Assembly (NCBI RefSeq): GCF_013141825.1
Contig: NZ_RZNH01000010.1
Coordinates: forward strand, 62,001 to 126,000
Direction: 5' to 3'
Length of the DNA: 64,000 bases
Source: Marinifilum caeruleilacunae
Lineage (GTDB): Bacteria; Bacteroidota; Bacteroidia; Bacteroidales; Marinifilaceae
Shown here piece after piece: positions 5,629 through 40,678 of the stretch (positions within the stretch are counted from its first letter, which is position 1; each line of letters begins with the position of its first letter). A program made the position numbers and the translations under genes. The notes under the pieces were generated by a model. That model was not told the origin of the DNA, made no database searches, and saw only the letters and a list, made by a program, of their open reading frames with translations.

Positions 5629-6576
5629 ATGAACCGACTCAATGCTACAACAAAATACAAGGGTGTAATTTATGCCATGGTTACAGCTTTTCTGTGGGGA
5701 TTTTTACCCATATTTTTAAAAGTTGCTTTACAGGATATTGATCCCATTAGTATCGTATGGTTCCGATTTAGTTTTGCCTTTGCAGTGCTCTTCTTGTACT
5801 ATTTGTTTACAGATAGAAAGCAATTGAATATCATTAAACGTCCGCCTCTTATTCTAATTATTGCTGCCATTGCATTGGGCGTAAATTATATTGGTTTTTT
5901 ACAAGGATTGAACTATACGAGTCCGAGCAATGCTCAAATTATCATTCAAAGTGGCCCAATAATGCTAGCCCTGGCAGGTGTAATTTTCTTTAAAGAAAGA
6001 TTAAACCTGAAGCAGATGATCGGCTTTGGAATTGCAGGAATTGGCCTTTTCCTTTTCTATCGCAACCAATTGCAAGAGTTCATTCACGACACCAATGCTT
6101 TCAACCTTGGATTCTTTTGGGTAGAACTGGCTGCAGTAACCTGGGTATTGTACGCAGTGCTGCAGAAAAAACTTGTTCAACAATATCCCGCCCAGGTATT
6201 AAATATGGTTCTTTATGGAATTCCAGCTTTAATTTATACTCCTATGGCCGATTTTTCAGCCTTTTCGGGATTAGATCTTAAAACATGGGCAATTGTGATC
6301 TTTTTAGGCATCAACACTTTAATTGCCTACGGTTCTATCGCACTGGCTTTTAAATACACCGAAGCCTACAAAGTGAGTATCATTGTAACGCTAAATCCGA
6401 TTATTACTTTGTTAACAATGGCTGTTTTGGCTAAGTTACAGGTAGATTGGATTCAGACCGAAAACCTGAATCTGTTCTCCTTAATTGGTGCTATTTTAGT
6501 GATTGGAGGAGCAGTTACAGCCGTGTTTTTCTCAAGAGAGAAAAAGAAAAAAGCAATGGCTAAATCAACCACTTAA
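5629..6576 (+). CDS. DMT-superfamily (EamA) transporter
   Basis: A 315-residue membrane protein with about ten hydrophobic helices in two EamA repeats (about residues 12-145 and 165-300). The first repeat opens with GVIYAMVTAFLWGFLPIFLK and the second with FWVELAAVTWVLYAVLQK, typical of drug/metabolite transporters that export amino acids or other small metabolites at the inner membrane. The C-terminus is positively charged (REKKKKAMAK). The substrate cannot be predicted. Its stop codon lies in a TTAA that is also the stop of the oppositely oriented CDF gene, so the two genes overlap by four bases tail to tail with no terminator between them. Confidence 0.93.
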   Translation: MNRLNATTKYKGVIYAMVTAFLWGFLPIFLKVALQDIDPISIVWFRFSFAFAVLFLYYLFTDRKQLNIIKRPPLILIIAAIALGVNYIGFLQGLNYTSPSNAQIIIQSGPIMLALAGVIFFKERLNLKQMIGFGIAGIGLFLFYRNQLQEFIHDTNAFNLGFFWVELAAVTWVLYAVLQKKLVQQYPAQVLNMVLYGIPALIYTPMADFSAFSGLDLKTWAIVIFLGINTLIAYGSIALAFKYTEAYKVSIIVTLNPIITLLTMAVLAKLQVDWIQTENLNLFSLIGAILVIGGAVTAVFFSREKKKKAMAKSTT

Positions 6577-7451
6577 ACATGGTCTCGAGGCTCAATATGA
6601 ATTGTAGCAACAAAGCCAAATTTCTTTTTTATCTCTTTTTCTATTTCGGTGGAAATATCATGCCCGGTTTTAATCGACATATCATGAGGTAGCTTAATGT
6701 GGAAGGTTACCTCGGTATGGTCTCCATAATTGTGCACATGAAAATGGTGTGGATCAATGGCATGAGGATAAACCTCTTCACAGGTTTTCTTTAAATCTTC
6801 AAGCAATTTCTTATCGGGGCTTTCGCCAAGCAATGAGTGAATAGAATCTCTGATAATTTCATAGGCGGCATATCCAATCATAAAGGCCACAATCATTCCC
6901 AATGCGCCATCAACCCACCAGAAATATCTTCCAAGAAAAATACCAATCAGAATCACAAAGGAAGAAATAGCATCGCTTCGATGATGCCAGCCATCAGCCT
7001 TCAGGACCTTGGAGTCGGTTTTTCGGGCACCATAAAAAGCAAACTGAGCCAGTGCTTCTTTCACAATTACAGAAATAACCATCACCACAATGGCTATGGT
7101 TCCAAATTGCGATGATTCTCCATCTTTTAAAGTGTGATAGGATTCAATCACAAAATCGAAGGCTACCAATAGCAGCAGAATCCCAATAATAAATGCACTA
7201 ATTAAATCGGCTCTACCATGCCCGAAAGGATGATCATCATCGGCAGGTTTTTTCGAAATTTTTGCTCCAATTAAAACGATAACCGAGCTTAAACTATCTG
7301 ATAAAGTATGCCAGGCATCAGCAATAATCGCAATGGAACCGGTCACCAATCCTGCCCAATACTTTAGTACAAATAAGATCACATTACCGGCAATAGACAG
7401 CCAGCCTTCTGTTTCGGCCCAATTCGATTTATTCAGCTCAAATTTCTTCAT
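6573..7451 (-). CDS. Cation diffusion facilitator (CDF) metal transporter
   Basis: A 292-residue inner-membrane metal/proton antiporter. About six transmembrane helices are followed by a cytosolic ferredoxin-like domain (about residues 210-290). The metal site shows as D45/H48/D52 in IADAWHTLSD of TM2 and as DGWHHRSDAIS in TM5. HPHAIDPHHFHVHNYGD is the His-rich start of the C-terminal domain. Zn2+, Fe2+ or Mn2+ efflux is the usual role; the metal is not decidable here. It lies 34 bases downstream of the metallophosphatase gene in the same direction and may share its transcript, which is notable because 5'-nucleotidases need divalent metals. Confidence 0.93.
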   Translation of the reverse strand: MKKFELNKSNWAETEGWLSIAGNVILFVLKYWAGLVTGSIAIIADAWHTLSDSLSSVIVLIGAKISKKPADDDHPFGHGRADLISAFIIGILLLLVAFDFVIESYHTLKDGESSQFGTIAIVVMVISVIVKEALAQFAFYGARKTDSKVLKADGWHHRSDAISSFVILIGIFLGRYFWWVDGALGMIVAFMIGYAAYEIIRDSIHSLLGESPDKKLLEDLKKTCEEVYPHAIDPHHFHVHNYGDHTEVTFHIKLPHDMSIKTGHDISTEIEKEIKKKFGFVATIHIEPRDHV

Positions 7452-7485
7452 ACAATCTAATAATCAGATACCTAAGTTAACGATT

Positions 7486-8418
7486 TTAAACTATATTCCC
7501 TTTCACTTTTATCAATTGCGAAGCGGCTAATTTTGTATTCTTTTTCGGATCGATATAAAAATCGATTCTTCCCAAAGCAATTCCTGCCCAACCTACCTGG
7601 TTGATCAATACCTCTTCACCATCAAGGTTTTGAACACGCTCTGGTTTTTCAAGCAGCGTATGCGAATGTCCACCTAAAATTACATCCACGCCCCTGGTTT
7701 GCTTGGCAAATTCTGTATCGCAATCCTCACCAATATGGCTGGTATGTCCCAAATGTGACAAGCAAACTACCAAATCGCAATTGTTTTCTTCTTTTAAAAT
7801 GCGAACCATTTTTTTAGATACCTCAACCGGATCGATATAGGTAATTGTTTCCCTGTTGTGAGGCTCTACATAGCCAGTTAAATCGACTCCAACACCAAAA
7901 ACACCCACTTTCAAATCTCCCTTTTCGAAAATATGATAGGGAGGAATCTTGCCCTCCAAGTCGGTTCCCGAAAAATCGTAATTGGCATTTAGCAATGGAA
8001 AGTTCAGGTGTTTTAATTGTGAGGCAATTCCTTTGATTCCATTATCAAACTCATGGTTCCCGATATTACCTGCATCGTAACCAATTTTCGACATCAGTTT
8101 AAATTCTGCTTCTCCCTTAAAAAAGTTAAAATATGGAGTTCCCTGGTACACATCGCCACAATCGAAAAGTAAAACATGCTCCTCTTCTCTCCTGATTTTT
8201 TTCATCAAAGCATTCAAACGGGCAAAACCTCCCAATCCGCCATATTTTGGATCTTTTTCAGGGAAAGGTTCAATCCTGCTGTGCAAATCGTTGGTGTGCA
8301 ACAAGGTAATTTTCAATTTGGATTTCGAAGCTGCAAAAAGTGATTTTGAGAACAATCCACTACCCAGAAAAACACCAGTTAATCCAAGCTTCTTAACAAA
8401 TTCTCTTCTATTCCACAT
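7486..8418 (-). CDS. Exported metallophosphatase: N-terminal half of a split 5'-nucleotidase
   Basis: A calcineurin-like phosphoesterase domain of the UshA/5'-nucleotidase family, about 310 residues, carrying only the metal-binding half. Ligand motifs in order are LLHTNDLHSR, FDCGDVYQG, GNHEFD, CLSHLGH and GGHSHT. The N-terminus WNRREFVKKLGLTG is Tat-like (RRxFxK) and precedes a hydrophobic stretch, so export is likely. I chose ATG 8418 because GGGAGG lies a few bases before it, a strong Shine-Dalgarno sequence in a genome that rarely uses one; the frame itself is open to 8475. The start overlaps the end of the upstream gene, which encodes the missing C-terminal half, so the two are translationally coupled. 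Likely activity: periplasmic hydrolysis of nucleotides. Confidence 0.9.
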   Translation of the reverse strand: MWNRREFVKKLGLTGVFLGSGLFSKSLFAASKSKLKITLLHTNDLHSRIEPFPEKDPKYGGLGGFARLNALMKKIRREEEHVLLFDCGDVYQGTPYFNFFKGEAEFKLMSKIGYDAGNIGNHEFDNGIKGIASQLKHLNFPLLNANYDFSGTDLEGKIPPYHIFEKGDLKVGVFGVGVDLTGYVEPHNRETITYIDPVEVSKKMVRILKEENNCDLVVCLSHLGHTSHIGEDCDTEFAKQTRGVDVILGGHSHTLLEKPERVQNLDGEEVLINQVGWAGIALGRIDFYIDPKKNTKLAASQLIKVKGNIV

Positions 8419-9190
8419 TGTAAATCCTCCCATCTTTTTTAGCTGATATTTTTTCTCCTCGCTTGTGCATTTCACTCATGTAACTGATGATTTCCGATCG
8501 CAATAATTTATGCATATGTCGAAAGGTTTCACGCTGTTCAAAAGCCGTGAAACCGCCACCACCATTCACCAGGTAGTCTACACTCATTACATGATATATT
8601 TTATCATTCTCAATTGCCTGTCCGGCAACTACAACATTTACTGCTTTGCGATCCTTTATTCCCATTCGAAGACCACTCACTCCTTCTCCACCAAAATAGG
8701 CCACTCTATGCATTAGGTTGATCAAGTCTTTTCCTTTCATGCCAACAATAACCAACTTGTTTTTAAAAGGCAACATTTCATACACTCTTCCGGTTGAAAT
8801 CTCTCCTTTCGACAGGGAAGTTCGAATGCCTCCCATGTTCATCAAAACCACATCTACTCCATGATCTAATTTTTGATCAGCACAATACTGATTGCCAATA
8901 TCAAACATGGCATCAGCAATAAAATTAGACAGCAATCCTTCGGGTTTACCGGTCATTAAATCCATTTCGGCTACCGATATAATTGTGTTCATCTCCCCAT
9001 CCAACTGGTGTTTGTAGGAATTGATCAGATTGGTTAAACTGGTATCAATTGTGGAAATCTCATCCAGATCGGAATTAACAGAATAATGCGATTCCACTTG
9101 GTTTGCAGTATGTTTTGCAGGTCCGGCGCAAGAAATCATTACCGAAACAACAAGAACATATAAAAGTGATGTGATCAGGTTTTTCTTCAT
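8408..9190 (-). CDS. Lipoprotein with 5'-nucleotidase C-terminal domain
   Basis: A 260-residue protein with a lipoprotein signal (VSVMISCAG, lipid-modified Cys21). The rest matches the substrate-binding C-terminal domain of UshA-type 5'-nucleotidases: NFIADAM near the start of the domain, the MNMGGIRTSLSKGEIS segment, LPFKNKLVIVGMKG, and the VDYLVNGGGGFTAF loop that stacks on the nucleobase. It has no metallophosphatase domain; that is encoded by the next gene, which overlaps it by 11 bases. Together they should form one functional enzyme tethered to a membrane. This two-gene form is known in Bacteroidota; the physical association is inferred from gene order. Confidence 0.88.
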   Translation of the reverse strand: MKKNLITSLLYVLVVSVMISCAGPAKHTANQVESHYSVNSDLDEISTIDTSLTNLINSYKHQLDGEMNTIISVAEMDLMTGKPEGLLSNFIADAMFDIGNQYCADQKLDHGVDVVLMNMGGIRTSLSKGEISTGRVYEMLPFKNKLVIVGMKGKDLINLMHRVAYFGGEGVSGLRMGIKDRKAVNVVVAGQAIENDKIYHVMSVDYLVNGGGGFTAFEQRETFRHMHKLLRSEIISYMSEMHKRGEKISAKKDGRIYNVE

Positions 9191-9358
9191 TTCTAGAGTA
9201 AAATACTTTAAAGTCTTTTTATTGGCTGGTAAAATTATAAATATATTCGATTATCTTCATTAAATAATTGATAACATTTATTTACCGGTACTTAGATAGA
9301 ATGAATCAGGCTTAGCGTTGAAAGTGTTTAATGCCTGGCCATTTAAATTATTCAGAAC

Positions 9359-10423
9359 CTAAAAATCTATGGTAAGCTGCATGGGTTCCGATTCATTTAT
9401 TCGGTTTGATATGGTAAGGCCAATCAGGCGAATACTGGTTTTCAATTCTTCCTGATCCAATAAATCTTCTGCCAGTTTTTGTATCATTTCTTCCCCTTGT
9501 ATGATTTGCAGTAAAGTTCTGCTTCGGGTTTCCTGTTCAAAATTGCTGTACTTCAGTTTCAAAGTAATGGTTCGCCCTTTAAAATCGCTCTTTTCCAACC
9601 TTCTAACCAAGGATTGGGTGGTCTTCTGAATGTCTTTCTTAATCTCTTTTGTATCGATTAAATCGGATTGATAGGTATGCTCCGTTCCTACCGATTTTCG
9701 AATTCGATTCGGATTCACCGATCTCTCATCAATTCCCCTGGAAATATTGTAGTAATAGGCCCCATGTTTCCCAAACAACCTGCTCAACTCAAGCAGACTT
9801 TTCTTTTTTAAATCTTTTCCTTTAAAAATGCCCAGTTTGTGCATTTTGTCGGCCGTTACTTTGCCAACACCATAAAATTTATCGATTTGTAAATCTTCAA
9901 TAAAAGCCTCAACATCTTTAGGAGGAATGGCAAATAAACCATCTGGCTTATTCACATCAGAAGCTATTTTCGCTAAAAATTTATTCACAGATATTCCTGC
10001 CGATGCAGTCAGCCCGGTTACTTCCTTTATTCGCTTCTTAATTTCTTTGGCAATTAAGGTGGCCGATGGAAGGTTTTTCTTGTTGTGGGTAACATCAAGG
10101 AAAGCCTCATCGATTGATAGTGGCTCCACCAAATCGGTAAATTCATGAAAAATATTCATGATCTGCTTGGATACCTCCTTGTATCTATCGTGCCTTCCTC
10201 TCACAAAAATGAGTTGGGGACATCTTTTTTTGGCAATTTTTGATGACATGGCCGAGCGCACCCCAAACTTGCGCGCTTCGTAGCTGGCAGCTGCAACAAC
10301 TCCTCTATCTCCATCACCTCCAACTGCTATTGGCTTATTACGCAGCTCCGGACGATCCAATTGTTCTACAGATGCAAAAAATGCATCCATATCGATATGT
10401 ATAATTTTTCGAATTTCTTCCAT
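9359..10423 (-). CDS. dinB: DNA polymerase IV (Y-family translesion polymerase)
   Basis: About 354 residues from MEEIRKIIHIDMDAFFASVE. The palm carries the catalytic acidic residues in IHIDMDAFFASVEQ and SIDEAFLDVT. The thumb has tandem helix-hairpin-helix motifs (FYGVGKVTADKMHKLGI), and the little-finger domain follows from about residue 240. DinB copies damaged templates without proofreading. The frame is open to 10477, but the ATG at 10423 gives the standard N-terminus. The C-terminus ends in PMQLTIDF, which resembles a QLxLF-type beta-clamp-binding motif (inference). It is divergent from the MATE gene and has no obvious LexA-like box in front of it. Confidence 0.95.
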   Translation of the reverse strand: MEEIRKIIHIDMDAFFASVEQLDRPELRNKPIAVGGDGDRGVVAAASYEARKFGVRSAMSSKIAKKRCPQLIFVRGRHDRYKEVSKQIMNIFHEFTDLVEPLSIDEAFLDVTHNKKNLPSATLIAKEIKKRIKEVTGLTASAGISVNKFLAKIASDVNKPDGLFAIPPKDVEAFIEDLQIDKFYGVGKVTADKMHKLGIFKGKDLKKKSLLELSRLFGKHGAYYYNISRGIDERSVNPNRIRKSVGTEHTYQSDLIDTKEIKKDIQKTTQSLVRRLEKSDFKGRTITLKLKYSNFEQETRSRTLLQIIQGEEMIQKLAEDLLDQEELKTSIRLIGLTISNRINESEPMQLTIDF

Positions 10424-33159: not shown

Positions 33160-35517
33160 TTATCCTATTTTTTTGGGTATGGTAAAACTAAATTTTGAAC
33201 CTCTGCCAACATCCGATTCCACCCATAATTCACCGCCAAGGAATTCTACAATTTGCTTGGATATGGAAAGCCCCAATCCAATTCCTCCATGCTCTCGTGT
33301 AAGGTGATTTTCGATTTGTCGGAACCTGCTGAAAATGATTTTCTGATGCTCGGGTGATATTCCAATTCCTGAATCCTGTACGTAAAACAAAACCGTATCT
33401 TTCAGGTTTTCGCAACCAATAATAATTTCTCCAACATTGGTAAATTTTATCGCATTCTGTATGAGATTGTTCAATACCTGAACCAGTTTCCCTTTATCTG
33501 TTTGTATCCTCAACTTGGCATTGTACAAATGATCCAATTGAATGTTCAATTTTTTTCTGTTCGCCTCTAATTGGTGAAGATCTTTAATTCCATCGAGCAA
33601 ATGATCGATACACACCGTTTCAATATTTAAATCGAGCTGTTTGGCCTCCAGAAGCGAGGCATTCAAGATATCATCCATAATTGTCATCAGCTGATTTCCA
33701 CAATCTTTAATGATGGTACCATACTCTTTGCGTTCTTCGGCCGTAACTTTCTCGTCGCTAATAAAATCGGTAAAACCTAAAATTCCGTTTAATGGAGTTC
33801 TCACCTCGTGACTTAGGTTGGCCAGGAAAGCACTTTTTAACCTGTCGTTTTCTTCAGCTTTTAAAAGAGCATGCGTTAATTTTGCTTCGGTATTTTTCTT
33901 TTCAGTGATATCGAGTCCAACTTTGATATAGCCAATAATTTTTTGCGCTTCGTCGAGAACCGGCGAAATCGATGCTGATTCCCAGTAATAACTACCATTT
34001 TTGGTTTTGTTGAAAAACTCTCCTTCCCATTTCATTCCTGAGGATATTTTACCCCACAAATCGCGATATACATCAGCCGATTGCTTTCCTGATTTTAAAA
34101 TTCTTGGATTTTTTCCTAGCAATTCTTCAATTTCGTAACCAGTAACTTTACAGGTTCTTGGGTTTACATATTCAATATCACCATCCAGGTTTGTAATTAC
34201 TATGGAAACCGGGCTTTGCTCTACAGCATTCGATAATTTTGTAATTTTTAGAAGGTTTTTATTCCTGGTGGTTACGTCTCTAACCACACAGTGTAATAAT
34301 TCCTTTCCTTCAAACTGTACAATATTGGCATTCACCTCTACTTCCTTCACCTCTTTAGATGCGGTGCGATGTTTTGCCTTGCAGGTTCCCCTTGGGTTTT
34401 TGATTACTTTCTCAATATTTTTCCAGGCAGTTGATTGTCCTCCAATATTTAAATCCCAAATTTTCAGGTTCTGTAATTGTCTTTTGCTATACCCATAAAA
34501 TTCACAAGCCTCATCATTCACATCTTTTATGGCTCCATCTTCGAGCGAAATCAGCATCATTACCGATGAGCTGGAATAAAAGATATTCTTGTAACGATTT
34601 TCAACCTCGCTTAGCTTTTCCTGCAGTTTGACCTTATCGGTTAAGTCAACAGCCGAAACAACAAACTCCTTTTCGTTTAAAGGGAATGAATCGGTATAAA
34701 TGTATTTTCCAATATCGGAATGATAGGAGTAAAAGCTTGTGTTCTTATTATCTTTGATTACCGTATTAAAATGCGCAATCCATTCAGGTTCAGTATTGGG
34801 GAACAAATCCAATAAGGTTTTGCCAACCGCATTTTCTCTCGATATTTCTATAATTTTTTCATTGGCAGGATTCATATCCTTATAAATCAGATCGACCAAA
34901 TCACCTGCTTCATTTTGTACTGCTTCGAAAATTACAATTGCAGAATTCGTAGATGAAAAAAGAGTTTTGTATTTCCTTTCACTCTGAATAAGCTGTTCTA
35001 CCAACTTTTCATTTTCCAATCTATGCTCTTCTATAAGCAAATGATCTTTAGATAAGCTGACTAGCGCTTTATCCTTTTTGTTTTTCAAGGAACTTAAGTC
35101 TTCTTCTATCATGTTTTTAAATTCCTTAAAGAATTTCTTTACTGCAGAATCGAACTTTCGCTTGTTTTTATCAACAATGCACAAGCTGCCAAACCATTGG
35201 CCGTTATCAGCCTTTAAAGGATATCCCAGGTAGGTGATTTCATTGGAGTTTTCCAATAAAAAATCATCGGCTCCAAGCTTTTTATCGCTTGTGAATACCT
35301 TTCCATAATGGGAAGAATCGAGTCGTTCTTTTACACCCAGTTTGAATTCCTTCTGACTGGAATTGCTTTTCAAAAGCAACTCAATATCGGAATTACTTAC
35401 ACGGGTTATAAACACATTGGATATATTGAATGATTTAGAAGTTAAATCCAACACATCCTGCCATTTACTTAAAACAGCATTGGAAATTTTTAATTGGGTA
35501 GTAGTAGTGCCAGACAT
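33160..35517 (-). CDS. Soluble multi-PAS sensor histidine kinase
   Basis: A 785-residue cytosolic kinase without membrane helices. Domains in order: a GAF-like region (about 10-140), three PAS domains (about 180-300, 305-420 and 425-540), HisKA with the phospho-acceptor H570 in LANLSHEVRTPLNG, and the HATPase domain (about 670-785: N-box NLIQNAIKFT, G1 VQDSGIGIS, G2 GGIGLGLSI). PAS3 lacks the NCRFLQ cysteine motif of LOV photoreceptors. No receiver domain or response regulator is adjacent on its strand. It diverges from the cobalamin-sensor operon, which may put it in the same signalling network. Confidence 0.92.
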   Translation of the reverse strand: MSGTTTTQLKISNAVLSKWQDVLDLTSKSFNISNVFITRVSNSDIELLLKSNSSQKEFKLGVKERLDSSHYGKVFTSDKKLGADDFLLENSNEITYLGYPLKADNGQWFGSLCIVDKNKRKFDSAVKKFFKEFKNMIEEDLSSLKNKKDKALVSLSKDHLLIEEHRLENEKLVEQLIQSERKYKTLFSSTNSAIVIFEAVQNEAGDLVDLIYKDMNPANEKIIEISRENAVGKTLLDLFPNTEPEWIAHFNTVIKDNKNTSFYSYHSDIGKYIYTDSFPLNEKEFVVSAVDLTDKVKLQEKLSEVENRYKNIFYSSSSVMMLISLEDGAIKDVNDEACEFYGYSKRQLQNLKIWDLNIGGQSTAWKNIEKVIKNPRGTCKAKHRTASKEVKEVEVNANIVQFEGKELLHCVVRDVTTRNKNLLKITKLSNAVEQSPVSIVITNLDGDIEYVNPRTCKVTGYEIEELLGKNPRILKSGKQSADVYRDLWGKISSGMKWEGEFFNKTKNGSYYWESASISPVLDEAQKIIGYIKVGLDITEKKNTEAKLTHALLKAEENDRLKSAFLANLSHEVRTPLNGILGFTDFISDEKVTAEERKEYGTIIKDCGNQLMTIMDDILNASLLEAKQLDLNIETVCIDHLLDGIKDLHQLEANRKKLNIQLDHLYNAKLRIQTDKGKLVQVLNNLIQNAIKFTNVGEIIIGCENLKDTVLFYVQDSGIGISPEHQKIIFSRFRQIENHLTREHGGIGLGLSISKQIVEFLGGELWVESDVGRGSKFSFTIPKKIG

Positions 35518-35830: not shown

Positions 35831-36475
35831 ATGACTATTACTACTGAAACTTACCACCAATTTATCAACTCATTGCTTCTTGGCGATCGAAATCAGTGTC
35901 ATCATATCATTAATGAGCACTGGGAGAAACAGTTCCCTTTGTTGATCATTTACGAAGAGATGATTAAAAAAGCAATGTACGAGGTTGGCGATTTATGGGA
36001 AGCCAATAAAATAAGTGTGGCAACCGAGCATTTATCCTCGGGAATTATCGAATCTATTCTCAATGATTTACAGCTAAAGCTTAAGCATTCGGCAAACAAA
36101 AAAAACACGGTTTTAACCGCTTGCGTAGAAAACGAATTCCACCAAATTGGCATTAAAATGATTGGTGATGTTTTTGAAAAAAATGGTTGGAAATCGTATT
36201 TTCTTGGAGCCAATACTCCAAATAGAGAACTTGTAAAGTTTGCCTCTCTTATACAACCTGATGTATTTGCCGTATCCTTAAGTATTTATTCTCATTTGCC
36301 CGCATTGGAAAAACTGATACTTGCGATCAGAACAAAATTTCCTAAACATCTAATTGCAGTTGGCGGACAAGCCTTTCGACATGGAGGAGAAGAAACCATA
36401 GCTCAATATGAAAATGTTGTTTTGTTACAAGACACTTTTCACACCGAAAAATTCATAAAAACACTTTCAGCATGA
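35831..36475 (+). CDS. CarH-like cobalamin-binding sensor without DNA-binding domain
   Basis: A 214-residue two-domain protein. Residues about 1-85 form the helical B12-binding-2-type bundle and carry W56 and E66-H67, an exact Wx9EH motif, which in CarH photoreceptors surrounds the 5'-deoxyadenosyl group. Residues about 93-212 form the Rossmann-like B12 domain with E102-F-H104-Q-I-G107 (ExHxxG, H104 as lower cobalt ligand), FLGANTP and VGGQAF. The N-terminal MerR helix-turn-helix of CarH is absent. The residue after W56 is Glu, whereas Thermus CarH has the His that ligates cobalt in the light state. Its stop overlaps the next start by four bases (ATGA), and two histidine kinase genes follow. 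A light or redox sensor feeding a kinase is the inference. Confidence 0.88.
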   Translation: MTITTETYHQFINSLLLGDRNQCHHIINEHWEKQFPLLIIYEEMIKKAMYEVGDLWEANKISVATEHLSSGIIESILNDLQLKLKHSANKKNTVLTACVENEFHQIGIKMIGDVFEKNGWKSYFLGANTPNRELVKFASLIQPDVFAVSLSIYSHLPALEKLILAIRTKFPKHLIAVGGQAFRHGGEETIAQYENVVLLQDTFHTEKFIKTLSA

Positions 36476-36903
36476 ATAAATCAGATTTGATATCTAGTGC
36501 GAATCAAATTCCTAAAATTGGGGACAAAGCTCTCGAAGACTACCATAAAAATGCCGACAAACTAATTGCCAGGGTAAACGACTTAATGACAGAACAAGCT
36601 GATTTAAAAACCCTGATAGGTGATGAAAACCTGGACATGATGAAGGATAATCATAAAAACCACCTGGATTTTATGGCTTCTCTTATGGCTAATTTTAATG
36701 CTCAAGTATTGGTCGAAACCATTATTTGGGTATTTAAAGCTTATCAGAATCATGGTTTTAACACAAAATACTGGCCCGTTCAACTTGAATCATGGAAAAA
36801 ATCCTTAGAGGAATATTTACCCCTTCAATCTTGTAAAGAAATAATGCCCCTTTATGATTGGATGCACTCCAACATTCAGCATTTTTCGAAATTGAGCAAA
36901 TAA
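36472..36903 (+). CDS. Unknown small helical protein coupled to the B12 sensor
   Basis: A 143-residue soluble protein I do not recognise. It looks all-helical, with a charged N-terminal half (DYHKNADKLIARVNDLMTEQ), a hydrophobic central helix (NAQVLVETIIWVFKAYQNHG) and a Trp/Tyr-rich C-terminal half (KYWPVQLESWKKSLEEYLPL). Its start overlaps the stop of the cobalamin sensor by four bases, and the kinase gene starts 14 bases after it, so co-translation with both is likely. A globin-like or RsbR-N-like sensory module is conceivable from its size and helicity but not shown. It probably links the B12 sensor to the kinase. Confidence 0.75.
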   Translation: MNKSDLISSANQIPKIGDKALEDYHKNADKLIARVNDLMTEQADLKTLIGDENLDMMKDNHKNHLDFMASLMANFNAQVLVETIIWVFKAYQNHGFNTKYWPVQLESWKKSLEEYLPLQSCKEIMPLYDWMHSNIQHFSKLSK

Positions 36904-36917
36904 TATAGTAAAGGCAT

Positions 36918-38078
36918 ATGTCAAACATCAATCGCATCATTCAAGGTTGGCAACATGAAATCGCCAGTGTCATTTCAAATGAAGAGCTGGTATATATCAT
37001 ACTTTTAAACGACAATGAGGAAATTTTGTACCTGAACGATTCGATGTCTCAACTACTAGGCAAGAACAGACTGCAGGCCTTTATCAATCCAAATATTCGA
37101 ACTTTACTTGAATTGGATACTGATCCTAATCCAATTTTTGTGGGTTACATTACCATTGGCGATTTGCAAACAGTAAATACTTCGCTATATGCTCATGTAT
37201 ATCGAAAAAAAGATGAAATCCTAATTCTTGCCGGTGCAAAAGTTCTGGAGCTGCTCGATCAGAATAAGCAAATGGCAGAGCTCAACCGAGAAGTAAATAC
37301 CCTGCAACGAGATTTGATTCTTAAGAATCATGAACTGGAAGAAACTCTGAATCAACTTCACGAAAGCAATCAAAAATTAGAAGAACTCAACAACAACAAA
37401 GATTTGTTTTTATCCATTTTGGCCCATGATTTAAAAAGTCCTTTCAATTCTCTACTTGGCTTCTCATCTCTTTTGGTTGACGACCTTGATACTTTGGATC
37501 AGGAGTCCATTCAAAAATATGCCAAAATTATCAATGAAATTTCAACACAGTCCTACCACTTACTCGAAGACATTTTGAATTGGCAAAACTCAAACAGTGG
37601 TAAAATTCCTTATACCCCAAAATCCTTTGCCCTGGCAGAAATCCTGACACCAATTTATAAACAGGTTAAATCAAGGGCAAGCGAAAAGAATATTCATTTG
37701 GATATCTTGCATCACAGCCAGGATTTCGTTTATGCAGATTACGACATGCTTTCAGTTATTCTAAGAAACTTGATAGCCAATGCCATTAAATTTACTTCGA
37801 CAGGGGGAAGAGTATCTATGAATATCGAGCAAAAGCAAAAACATATGGAATTTAGAATTTCTGATACAGGAATCGGAATGACAGAGAAAGAGGTTCAAAG
37901 AATTGTTGGGTCCTCCGAAATCAAGAGTAAAGCCGGCACAAAGAATGAAAAAGGAACAGGGCTGGGATTATTAATGTGCAAAGAATTTATCACCAGGCAT
38001 GGTGGAGAATTTGAAATTAATTCGACTCCCGGTGAAGGAAGTACAATTATTTTTCGCCTTCCACAAAGGTCAAACTAA
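36918..38078 (+). CDS. Soluble sensor histidine kinase
   Basis: A 386-residue kinase without membrane helices. Residues about 15-110 resemble a PAS domain (ELVYIILLNDNEEILYLNDS), followed by a coiled coil (about 112-160). HisKA has H170 in SILAHDLKSPFNSLLGFS, and the HATPase domain (about 265-386) has NLIANAIKFTS, ISDTGIGMT and KGTGLGLLMC. It is the third gene of the cobalamin-sensor run. Its input could be the sensor protein and not a small ligand, since PAS plus coiled coil suits protein contacts. No receiver is fused to it. Confidence 0.92.
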   Translation: MSNINRIIQGWQHEIASVISNEELVYIILLNDNEEILYLNDSMSQLLGKNRLQAFINPNIRTLLELDTDPNPIFVGYITIGDLQTVNTSLYAHVYRKKDEILILAGAKVLELLDQNKQMAELNREVNTLQRDLILKNHELEETLNQLHESNQKLEELNNNKDLFLSILAHDLKSPFNSLLGFSSLLVDDLDTLDQESIQKYAKIINEISTQSYHLLEDILNWQNSNSGKIPYTPKSFALAEILTPIYKQVKSRASEKNIHLDILHHSQDFVYADYDMLSVILRNLIANAIKFTSTGGRVSMNIEQKQKHMEFRISDTGIGMTEKEVQRIVGSSEIKSKAGTKNEKGTGLGLLMCKEFITRHGGEFEINSTPGEGSTIIFRLPQRSN

Positions 38079-38190: not shown

Positions 38191-40161
38191 ATGAAAGGAC
38201 TCAAATTTCAAACCCGACTAATTTTAGGCTTTTCTCTCATCCTGTTTTTTAGCTTTATTATTGGAATAATTTCTTTTATCGAAATTAAAAACATAAGCAA
38301 GAAAACAGAAGCTATCTACCGTCATCCACTAGCTGTAAGTAATTCTGTTCGTGACATTAACATCAGCATTAATGCCATTCATCGTTCGATGAAAGATGTT
38401 GTGCTTGCCAAAAATATCGAAGAATTATACGAATCGATTTTAGTGGTCAACAAGCATGACAGACAAGTTTACACTTCCTTTAAGGTTGTACAGGAACGCT
38501 TTTTAGGCGAAAAAGAAGTTGTAAATGATGCCTACCAGGCTTATCGCGATTGGGAAAAAATCAGAAATGAAGTAATCATGCTCAAAAAAGGTGGACATGA
38601 TGAAAGAGCCGCGGACATTACACGAGGACGAGGAGCGTTCCATGTAAATCTACTATTCGAAAAAACAAAAATCCTGACCGATTTTGCACAAAACAAAGCT
38701 GATGAATTCTATCTAAGTACCCTGGAATCGGAGCAAAAAAGTTTTGCCATCCTCATTACCAGTATTTCATTAATATTACTGATAAGTATTGGTACTGCAC
38801 TTTGGCTTTCCAAAAGTATTTCCAGACCAATTCATCGCTTTATCGATGAAATTAGTACCATTTTTACGAATGAAGATGATTTAATTCAGAACATTCAGAA
38901 CAAGAGTGAACAGGAAATTTTAGGAATTACTTCCAAGAAACTAAAATCTTCCTATCAAAAACTCAACGATTTTAACAAAGAACTCGACAAACAAATTGAA
39001 CAGCGTACTTCTGAATTAAAAGAAGCAAAAGAAAAAGCGGAAGAAAGTGAACAGCTAAAATCGGCTTTCCTGGCAAATATGTCACACGAAATCAGGACGC
39101 CCTTAAATTCGATCCTGGGTTTTTCGGAGTTCTTGCATAAAGATGACCTTCCACGAGAAAAGAAAAAACTGTATTTAGATATGATTGACAATGGCGGTCA
39201 GAGGTTGCTAACGATTATATCTGATATTGTTGATATTTCGAAAATTGAAGCAAAACAATTTAGTTTAAGTTACGAAATTGCAATGCTGAACGAAATTATC
39301 GATAAACTTCACCAGCAATTTTCAATTGCGACTGGTAAAAAAGGGATTGAGCTCAAAACGTTGAAAGCATTAGACGATTACTCGAGTTTTATATCCACCG
39401 ATATCACAAGGCTTTCCCAGGTGTTCTCCAATTTATTGGAAAATTCGATCAAGTTTACCAATGAGGGCGAAATTGAATTTGGCTACCAAGTACACGAAAA
39501 CAGGCTAGTCATGCATGTTCGCGATACAGGTATTGGTATCCCGAAAGATTTTCATCATTTAATTTTTGAACGCTTCAGGCAAACCGATTTACAGGAAGCA
39601 ACACTTCCAACCGGAACAGGTCTTGGTCTTTCTATTGCCCAAGGTATTGTAGAGCTGTTTGGTGGTAAAATATGGCTTGAGTCGGAAGAAGGAACTGGTG
39701 CATGTTTTTATTTCGAACTTCCTTATTTGCCTACTTCCACTAAACAGGTAAATAAAAAGATAAAGGCCGATGAATTCTTTTATCACACCAGTGGAAAAAC
39801 AATTCTTGTGGTTGAAGATGAACCTTCAAACTATATCTATGTAAGAGATTTACTGAGTGAATACAATTACAATATTTTACATGCCGAAAATGGCAAAGAT
39901 GCTGTTGATATTATCAATAACGATATTAAAGTGGATTTGATCTTAATGGATATAAAAATGCCGGTTATGAACGGTTTACAGGCCACCAGGGAAATCCGTA
40001 AAACAAATAAAACCATTCCTGTAATTGCCCAAACTGCTCATGCCATGTCCGACGATAAGAGGCAAGCATTTAATGCTGGTTGTAACGACTTTTTAGCCAA
40101 GCCAATTACCTTTCAATCCTTCTCAGAGATTGTACAAAAACATTTGAGTCAATCCAATTAA
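38191..40161 (+). CDS. Membrane hybrid histidine kinase with receiver domain
   Basis: A 656-residue protein. Two membrane helices (about 10-30 and 185-205) flank a periplasmic four-helix-bundle sensor of the 4HB_MCP type, followed by a HAMP-like region and coiled coil (about 206-285). HisKA has H299 in ANMSHEIRTPLNSILGFS, and the HATPase domain spans about 400-512 (NLLENSIKFTN, VRDTGIGI, GTGLGLSI). A receiver domain (about 537-655) carries the phospho-acceptor D587 in LILMDIKMPVMNG. It may accept phosphate from the preceding kinase as well as from itself. A 112-base gap separates it from that kinase. Confidence 0.93.
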   Translation: MKGLKFQTRLILGFSLILFFSFIIGIISFIEIKNISKKTEAIYRHPLAVSNSVRDINISINAIHRSMKDVVLAKNIEELYESILVVNKHDRQVYTSFKVVQERFLGEKEVVNDAYQAYRDWEKIRNEVIMLKKGGHDERAADITRGRGAFHVNLLFEKTKILTDFAQNKADEFYLSTLESEQKSFAILITSISLILLISIGTALWLSKSISRPIHRFIDEISTIFTNEDDLIQNIQNKSEQEILGITSKKLKSSYQKLNDFNKELDKQIEQRTSELKEAKEKAEESEQLKSAFLANMSHEIRTPLNSILGFSEFLHKDDLPREKKKLYLDMIDNGGQRLLTIISDIVDISKIEAKQFSLSYEIAMLNEIIDKLHQQFSIATGKKGIELKTLKALDDYSSFISTDITRLSQVFSNLLENSIKFTNEGEIEFGYQVHENRLVMHVRDTGIGIPKDFHHLIFERFRQTDLQEATLPTGTGLGLSIAQGIVELFGGKIWLESEEGTGACFYFELPYLPTSTKQVNKKIKADEFFYHTSGKTILVVEDEPSNYIYVRDLLSEYNYNILHAENGKDAVDIINNDIKVDLILMDIKMPVMNGLQATREIRKTNKTIPVIAQTAHAMSDDKRQAFNAGCNDFLAKPITFQSFSEIVQKHLSQSN

Positions 40162-40216: not shown

Positions 40217-40678
40217 ATGAGACGAAAAGAACGAGAAATAACTGATCCTAAGTTGCTAGAGGAAATATTGAAAGGGGCGAACATTTGCCGCCTGGCCATT
40301 AGCAACCATCCTTACCCATATATTGTAGCTTTGAATTACGGTTATGCCGATAATTCACTCTTTATTCATTGCGCCAAAGAAGGCAAGAAAATTGATCTTT
40401 TAAGGAAGAACAATAAGGTAGGTTTTCAAATTGAAAGGGGCAGTGAAATTATTCCTCATGAAGAATCGTGCCAATGGACTACAAAATATCGTTCGATTAT
40501 TGGAACAGGAGAAGTTGAAATGATTGATGATTTCGATGAAAAATGTAAAGGCTTGGATGTGATTATGAATCATTCTGGCAAAGCCGATAATTCTTACCAT
40601 CCCAAAGCAGTTGATAAAGTACTGATTCTGAAAGTAAAAATTAATGAGTTTAGTGGCAAACAGGCAGGTGATTGGTAA
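40217..40678 (+). CDS. Pyridoxamine 5'-phosphate oxidase-like (NimA-type) flavoprotein
   Basis: A 153-residue split-barrel protein. MRRKEREITDPKLLEEILKG, then ICRLAISNHPYPYIVALNYGY and the IHCAKEGKKIDLLRKN segment are typical of the Nim (nitroimidazole reductase-like) branch of FMN-binding PNPOx proteins. Chromosomal relatives are widespread and usually have no proven resistance role. It is 55 bases downstream of the hybrid kinase and may be part of that unit. Confidence 0.88.
   Translation: MRRKEREITDPKLLEEILKGANICRLAISNHPYPYIVALNYGYADNSLFIHCAKEGKKIDLLRKNNKVGFQIERGSEIIPHEESCQWTTKYRSIIGTGEVEMIDDFDEKCKGLDVIMNHSGKADNSYHPKAVDKVLILKVKINEFSGKQAGDW

Follow-up and report, generated by a model that had tools for sequence, protein, structure and literature searches.

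A probable split, kinase-coupled photocobilin-like sensor locus in Marinifilum caeruleilacunae

Background

How does a protein that carries the adenosylcobalamin (AdoCbl) motifs of the light sensor CarH, and that lacks a DNA-binding domain, hand on its signal? This question is raised by a locus of Marinifilum caeruleilacunae (Bacteroidota, Bacteroidales) that lies in a stretch of 64,000 nt (assembly GCF_013141825.1, contig NZ_RZNH01000010.1, positions 62,001 to 126,000 of the forward strand), hereafter the window, to whose numbering the coordinates below refer. The locus consists of the genes of a 214-residue cobalamin-binding protein (35831..36475, + strand), a 143-residue protein (36472..36903, +) and a 386-residue soluble histidine kinase (36918..38078, +), followed by that of a 656-residue hybrid kinase (38191..40161, +). 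The first two genes overlap by 4 bp (ATGA, 36472..36475, +). An initial annotation of the window had placed these four open reading frames (ORFs) correctly, had described the first product as a CarH-like module wired to kinases, and had mentioned the second gene while leaving it unidentified.

We consider it probable that the locus encodes a split, kinase-coupled sensor resembling the photocobilins and composed of a B12 protein, a globin and a soluble kinase. Judging from the sequences, the kinase is likely to be under B12-dependent control; by analogy with characterised relatives, light is a plausible natural signal. The second gene encodes a globin-fold protein and proved to be the most informative part of the locus.

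The globin-fold protein

For the 143-residue protein no match was obtained in Pfam or NCBIfam up to E 1, nor any meaningful match in the Protein Data Bank (PDB), either by sequence or by profile. Its predicted model has a globin/phycobiliprotein fold (pLDDT 95.3), and heme globins score equally well with it in the fold comparison. On the basis of the model, of the fold matches and of a fused protein of Ilyobacter polytropus described below, we read it as most likely a free-standing photoglobin, namely the globin half of a photocobilin. Precisely, its structural alignment with a photocobilin begins at an offset of 210 residues (17 on 227), the same at which N60 of the motif D59-N60-H61-x-N63-H64 (36646..36663, +) aligns with Asp270 of the photocobilin SasPcob and W86 (36727..36729, +) with its Trp296; N60 and W86 are 26 residues apart, and so are Asp270 and Trp296. 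In SasPcob, Asp270 holds biliverdin and Trp296 touches both the bilin and the corrin (PMC10979010). The profile comparison (hhalign) with the globins of fused photocobilins was only marginal (P 0.012 at a probability of 3.7%, P 0.0083 at 4.8%) and lowers the odds of the photoglobin assignment; the alignments themselves were gapless and in the expected register, and the control gave a P of 0.19.

Relatives of the globin gene were collected by a DNA-pattern scan of genome contigs with two patterns, one containing the Asn motif and one omitting it. The scan gave 188 globin relatives, of which 80 were taken into the analysis and 108 were not seen; the window and another 18 loci brought the total to 99, reduced to 92 when 7 duplicates were dropped. 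A B12 gene was nearby in 88 of these 92 distinct loci, a kinase gene in 83 and both in 81, hence the tie between an HTH-less (helix-turn-helix-less) cobalamin protein and a soluble kinase, expected by the initial annotation, is borne out by a conserved gene set.

Over the 92 globins, Asn60 is conserved in 92, His61 in 91, Asn63 in 92 and His64 in 89, and Trp86 is Trp in all 92 and in five fused proteins compared. The invariance of Asn60 does not stem from the choice of scan pattern, since the 15 globins not matched by the Asn-containing pattern also carry it. The Asp270 column is Asp in the globins of four photocobilins compared (from Azospirillum, Skermanella, Streptomyces and Saccharothrix) and Asn in that of Ilyobacter; AbPcob has His at this place, binds biliverdin poorly and is still called a photocobilin (PMC10979010).

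Heme oxygenase (PF01126) was found in 0/19 globin-bearing genomes of one set and in 1/29 of another, of unstated completeness, so that 47 of the 48 searched genomes, from which that of locus L091 was left out, are without it. The only one with the enzyme is a SAR324 bin (locus L077). As it was also found in none of 198 genomes sampled from the order of the window, its absence marks the lineage and not the system. The anaerobic heme-breakdown enzyme (TIGR04107) was over its cut-off in 0/19 globin-bearing genomes, and the matches under the cut-off, seen in 19/19 of these and in 14/14 controls alike, are uninformative. Biliverdin binding is doubtful given that Asn replaces Asp270 in 92/92 globins, with heme oxygenase absent lineage-wide; as ligand of the globin biliverdin looks unlikely, and heme, another bilin or no ligand remain.

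The globin may instead be a heme-based gas sensor or a ligand-free scaffold and not a bilin protein, in which case the unit would integrate gas and B12 signals. We hold this to be somewhat improbable: the fold comparison does not set the protein apart from heme globins, but helix 77-93 contains no invariant His and His94, just beyond it, is present in only 59/92, so that the classical proximal ligand is not constant; moreover, the counterpart of SasPcob Trp296 is invariant and the Ilyobacter fusion has the architecture of a photocobilin.

The cobalamin-binding protein and its signal

The 214-residue protein consists of a four-helix cap and a Rossmann B12-binding domain, as indicated by PDB matches and by Pfam (B12-binding_2, residues 9-78, E 1.1e-13; B12-binding, residues 93-192, E 2.1e-16). 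The two domains take up all 214 residues, and no HTH family was found in it by Pfam up to E 1, in agreement with the initial annotation, according to which the MerR DNA-binding domain is missing. Both motifs named there are exact. Wx9EH is represented by W56-x9-E66-H67 (35996..36031, +), whose counterpart in CarH and SasPcob is in contact with the adenosyl group, and ExHxxG by E102-x-H104-x-x-G107 (36134..36151, +), in which His104 should be the lower axial ligand of the cobalt (His108 of SasPcob). Among 88 homologues encoded next to the globins, three end before the W column; in the other 85 the W, E and H of Wx9EH are each fully conserved, the His104 column is His in 88/88, and both motifs are exact in 84/85 (the exception is locus L112), hence they are not there by chance.

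The photocobilins were the best PDB matches of the protein (8J2X and 8J2W, E 1.8e-18; 8J2Y, E 6.6e-18), with CarH at E 8.2e-6 (5C8A), and the NCBIfam model TransRegCarH gave 50.2 bits vs a cut-off of 400. The CarH-like module is therefore confirmed as regards motifs and B12 domains, and among solved structures it stands nearer to the photocobilins than to CarH.

Residue 57, immediately after the Trp, is Glu in the window protein, and Glu in 83, Gln in 2 and His in none of the 85 homologues: the missing light-state His, which the initial annotation had noticed in one protein, is a family trait. SasPcob and CtMerR, which have Gln and Arg in place of this His, form a light state of the water or hydroxide type (PMC10979010, PMC11796333). 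The elements listed by SignatureFinder for light-responsive cobalamin domains are GxxW, EH, GxxH and GxxxP (PMC11796333); three of the four are present, as G53xxW56, E66H67 and G126xxxP130, with GxxH replaced by N101xxH104 (Gly at residue 101 occurs in 13/88 homologues). Light sensing is plausible because SasPcob and CtMerR also lack the His and because three of the four elements are found.

The same module could respond naturally to the level of AdoCbl or to the redox or oxygen state, with photolysis incidental. In favour of this view, many loci come from database records of sediment, sulfate-reducing and other oxygen-poor sources (habitats inferred), AdoCbl binding alone changes the diguanylate cyclase activity of AbDPcob (PMC10979010), and the scans made showed no light-linked neighbour of the trio. 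We nonetheless regard it as rather unlikely, as the adenosyl pocket W-x9-EH is complete in 85/85 homologues and in characterised relatives accompanies photolysis, and as the genome of the window codes for a second protein with both motifs, CarH-like and of the MerR type.

That CarH/LitR-like protein has 296 residues (locus L002, contig C1, 1096-1986), and its gene adjoins fasciclin-like and sigma-factor-like ORFs, both named by eye from their translations. Since both proteins are encoded, AdoCbl probably serves this organism as a signal in two ways. Of 19 globin-bearing genomes, 17 have a cobalamin adenosyltransferase.

It is very improbable that the 214-residue protein is a corrinoid protein of a methyltransferase system and not a sensor: it does match the MtaC, MtbC, MtgC and MetH models, with which it shares the fold, but with scores far under the cut-off (e.g. 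37.8 of 450 bits), its best matches are CarH in NCBIfam and photocobilins in the PDB, and W-x9-EH is kept. The scores and the kinase context, with globin and kinases as neighbours in 81/92 loci, led us to reject this candidate.

The kinase and the conserved gene set

The 386-residue protein has HisKA (161-223, with the conserved H170) and HATPase_c (274-384) domains in Pfam, which form a transmitter (37398..38069, +) with no receiver domain. Upstream of it lie a PAS-like domain (about residues 1-108) and a long helix (109-153), together at 36918..37376 (+), seen in the predicted model of residues 1-154 as a PAS-like fold and one long helix; the Pfam PAS matches are under the cut-off (19.5 bits against 27, and 18.2 against 22.6). 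The kinase had thus been rightly described as soluble and PAS-like. HisKA and HATPase_c occur in 39/39 kinase homologues scanned. The PAS-like domain is the system's own adaptor: it was found in 9/9 genomes with the globin, at the globin locus only, and in 0/8 genomes without it.

The order B12-globin-kinase was observed in 59 of the 92 loci and B12-kinase-globin in 18, with 15 arranged otherwise, and in 0/92 were globin and B12 domain joined in one ORF. Globin, B12 protein and kinase N-terminus have correlated pairwise distances (r 0.61-0.64; 0/999 permutations as high), as is also expected from shared species history. That the genes are merely adjacent and the kinase unrelated, as the many kinases of these genomes and the absence of the trio from five other genomes of the genus might suggest, is hardly credible at all, being already contradicted by the recurrence of the set in two main orders and by an adaptor domain that comes and goes with the globin.

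The B12 gene is missing in L040, L079, L082 and L103; in L103 the sequence begins 52 bp before the globin gene. The profile found no kinase in L059, L066, L079, L082, L089, L093, L110, L112 and L119. Precisely, L119 has a HisKA_2 kinase instead, the adaptor domain is cut off at the contig end in L059, L089 and L110, and the contig ends within 800 bp in L066 and L093; L079, L082 and L112 remain without a kinase. Locus L040 (genome G253) holds the globin and a kinase fragment of 110 residues only, and is possibly a decaying copy; L041, of the same genus, has the full set. In Geofilum rubicundum (L071, 4026-6008) kinase, a low-complexity stretch and B12 domain stand in one ORF, possibly owing to an assembly frameshift and not to a fusion.

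The presence of the system is patchy, as the globin was found in 16/344 genomes of the order of the window and, within its genus, in one of 6 tested genomes, that of the window itself. The globin loci cover 11 named NCBI phyla, with labels taken from database records that are mostly metagenome bins and hence only as good as these bins. The full trio was identified by profile in Bacteroidota, Thermodesulfobacteriota, Lentisphaerota, Balneolota, Fibrobacterota, Planctomycetota and Myxococcota (7 phyla), and also in SAR324 and Riflebacteria bins; a Spirochaetota locus has a HisKA_2 kinase. Marinifilum breve and Natronoflexus pectinivorans are among the carriers of the trio. A globin tree with very long outgroup branches and 43/94 inner branches open was used for the phylum tally alone.

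Downstream genes and output

The 656-residue hybrid kinase noted by the initial annotation, encoded 112 bp downstream of the 386-residue kinase gene, is of membrane type and has the Pfam architecture 4HB_MCP_1-HisKA-HATPase_c-receiver. It is a possible but unproven relay partner. Over 76 loci (5 further ones at contig edges were set aside), the gene next after the trio encodes a receiver-bearing protein in 21, another kinase in 3 and something else in 24, with none within 300 bp in 28; a fixed downstream receiver partner was not found among these next genes. Six module kinases carry their own receiver. L076 and L106 have a receiver-PAS-GGDEF gene downstream, L077 and L083 a receiver-SpoIIE gene, and the module kinase of L077 is of the type HK-receiver-HPt. 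The relay by phosphotransfer proposed initially is therefore plausible, with receivers or HPt domains on kinases and receiver genes next door in some loci, but the transfer of phosphate to a downstream receiver is weakly supported because no constant partner exists. In L105 the module is followed by a gene (6485-10264) for a CheB-CheR-PAS-HisKA-receiver protein.

In the window the hybrid kinase gene is followed by an ORF of 153 residues (40217-40678), whose product looks like a pyridoxamine-oxidase-fold flavoprotein. On the other side, a multi-PAS histidine kinase of 785 residues (33160-35517, - strand) is divergent from the B12 gene and stands outside the conserved trio.

Proposed mechanism

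We suggest that the 214-residue protein binds AdoCbl in the base-off/His-on form, as motif and homology indicate, and that it would make up one two-chain sensor unit with the globin, given their near-constant gene pairing and the fused Ilyobacter protein. This unit may dock on the 386-residue kinase at its N-terminal PAS-like domain and alter its autophosphorylation, the domain being found only with the system and also on other output enzymes. The signal would be either the photolytic removal of the adenosyl group in green light or the occupancy of the protein by AdoCbl, upon which the E66-H67 helix would move; with Glu57 instead of His, the light state would be ligated by water or hydroxide, as in SasPcob, and not bis-His. 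The phosphate might then pass to a receiver, perhaps that of the downstream hybrid kinase.

A wider and quite doubtful conjecture is that these loci form a separate B12-photoreceptor branch in bacteria without heme-oxygenase biliverdin. The invariant Asn and the near-invariant His-x-Asn-His would have adapted the photoglobin to a different ligand, be it heme, a bilin made by an anaerobic or otherwise unknown route, or no ligand at all. A purpose-made PAS-like adaptor would let the two-chain sensor drive interchangeable outputs, namely HisKA or HisKA_2 kinases, kinase relays in which HPt leads to receivers with SpoIIE or GGDEF, or a GGDEF protein without a relay.

If the proposal of a split, kinase-coupled sensor is true, B12 photoreception would extend beyond repressors and single-chain fusions to a three-protein version that feeds phosphorelays, spread over several phyla, including lineages not considered light-responsive. 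It would also provide a natural cobalamin sensor controlling a kinase, of use for green-light optogenetics, and a family whose globins all lack the known biliverdin anchor, in which the ligand of a photoglobin without biliverdin could be directly tested.

Comparison with known systems

CarH/LitR proteins (5C8A, 5C8D) share with the window protein the AdoCbl cap and Rossmann domains, Wx9EH and ExHxxG; unlike it, CarH has a MerR HTH and a His after the Trp (His132 of TtCarH, with a bis-His light state). Membership in CarH was considered and rejected, as there is neither HTH nor second His and the PDB match is weaker than that of photocobilins. The cobalamin domain of CtMerR (8JBS; PMC11796333) is likewise light-sensitive and lacks the second His (Arg in this case), but CtMerR is a DNA-binding regulator without a globin, whereas the window system has globin and kinase.

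Splitting as such has precedent, since the BBAG-2 globins of Myxococcales are encoded by stand-alone genes adjoining stand-alone B12-binding genes; these globins bind biliverdin and are tied to heme oxygenase and a pre-2 bilin reductase, where the window system has a kinase instead (PMC10151467).

The protein WP_013388897 of Ilyobacter polytropus (plasmid pILYOP01) has in common with our system the globin with the same Asn, the B12 domain and a PAS-like adaptor on the output protein. In this case, globin and B12 domain are fused, globin first, and the next gene encodes a GGDEF output and not a kinase; it is the only globin-B12 fusion among the loci of the window type examined.

Schneider et al. 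(2022; cited in PMC10979010, PMC11796333 and PMC10151467) reportedly defined a photoglobin family, with a phycobiliprotein-related globin fold tied to B12-binding and signalling domains, and are said to have already proposed modules of photoglobin and B12-binding domain in signal transduction.

Photocobilins bind AdoCbl and biliverdin and react to both green and red light. With the photocobilins (SasPcob, 8J2W/8J2X; AbDPcob, 8J2Y; PMC10979010) the window system shares the CarH-like cobalamin domain with its W, EH and ExH motifs, the globin-like partner, a residue other than His after the Trp, and a regulated output enzyme. In contrast, a photocobilin is one polypeptide, while here B12 protein and globin are the products of two overlapping genes; Asp270 of SasPcob corresponds to Asn60; and the output lies in a histidine kinase apart from the sensor, which bears a PAS-like adaptor specific to the system; there is no sign of a biliverdin supply. 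We do not class the system as a photocobilin, since it lacks the single chain and the biliverdin-holding Asp. The term "histidine kinase" is absent from the main text of PMC10979010 and PMC11796333, and the separate-kinase form does differ from the photocobilins, as the initial annotation suspected when it knew of no described system; with its globin, however, the locus is less isolated than was held, being a split photocobilin-like module. In the other features examined, the window system resembles a photocobilin.
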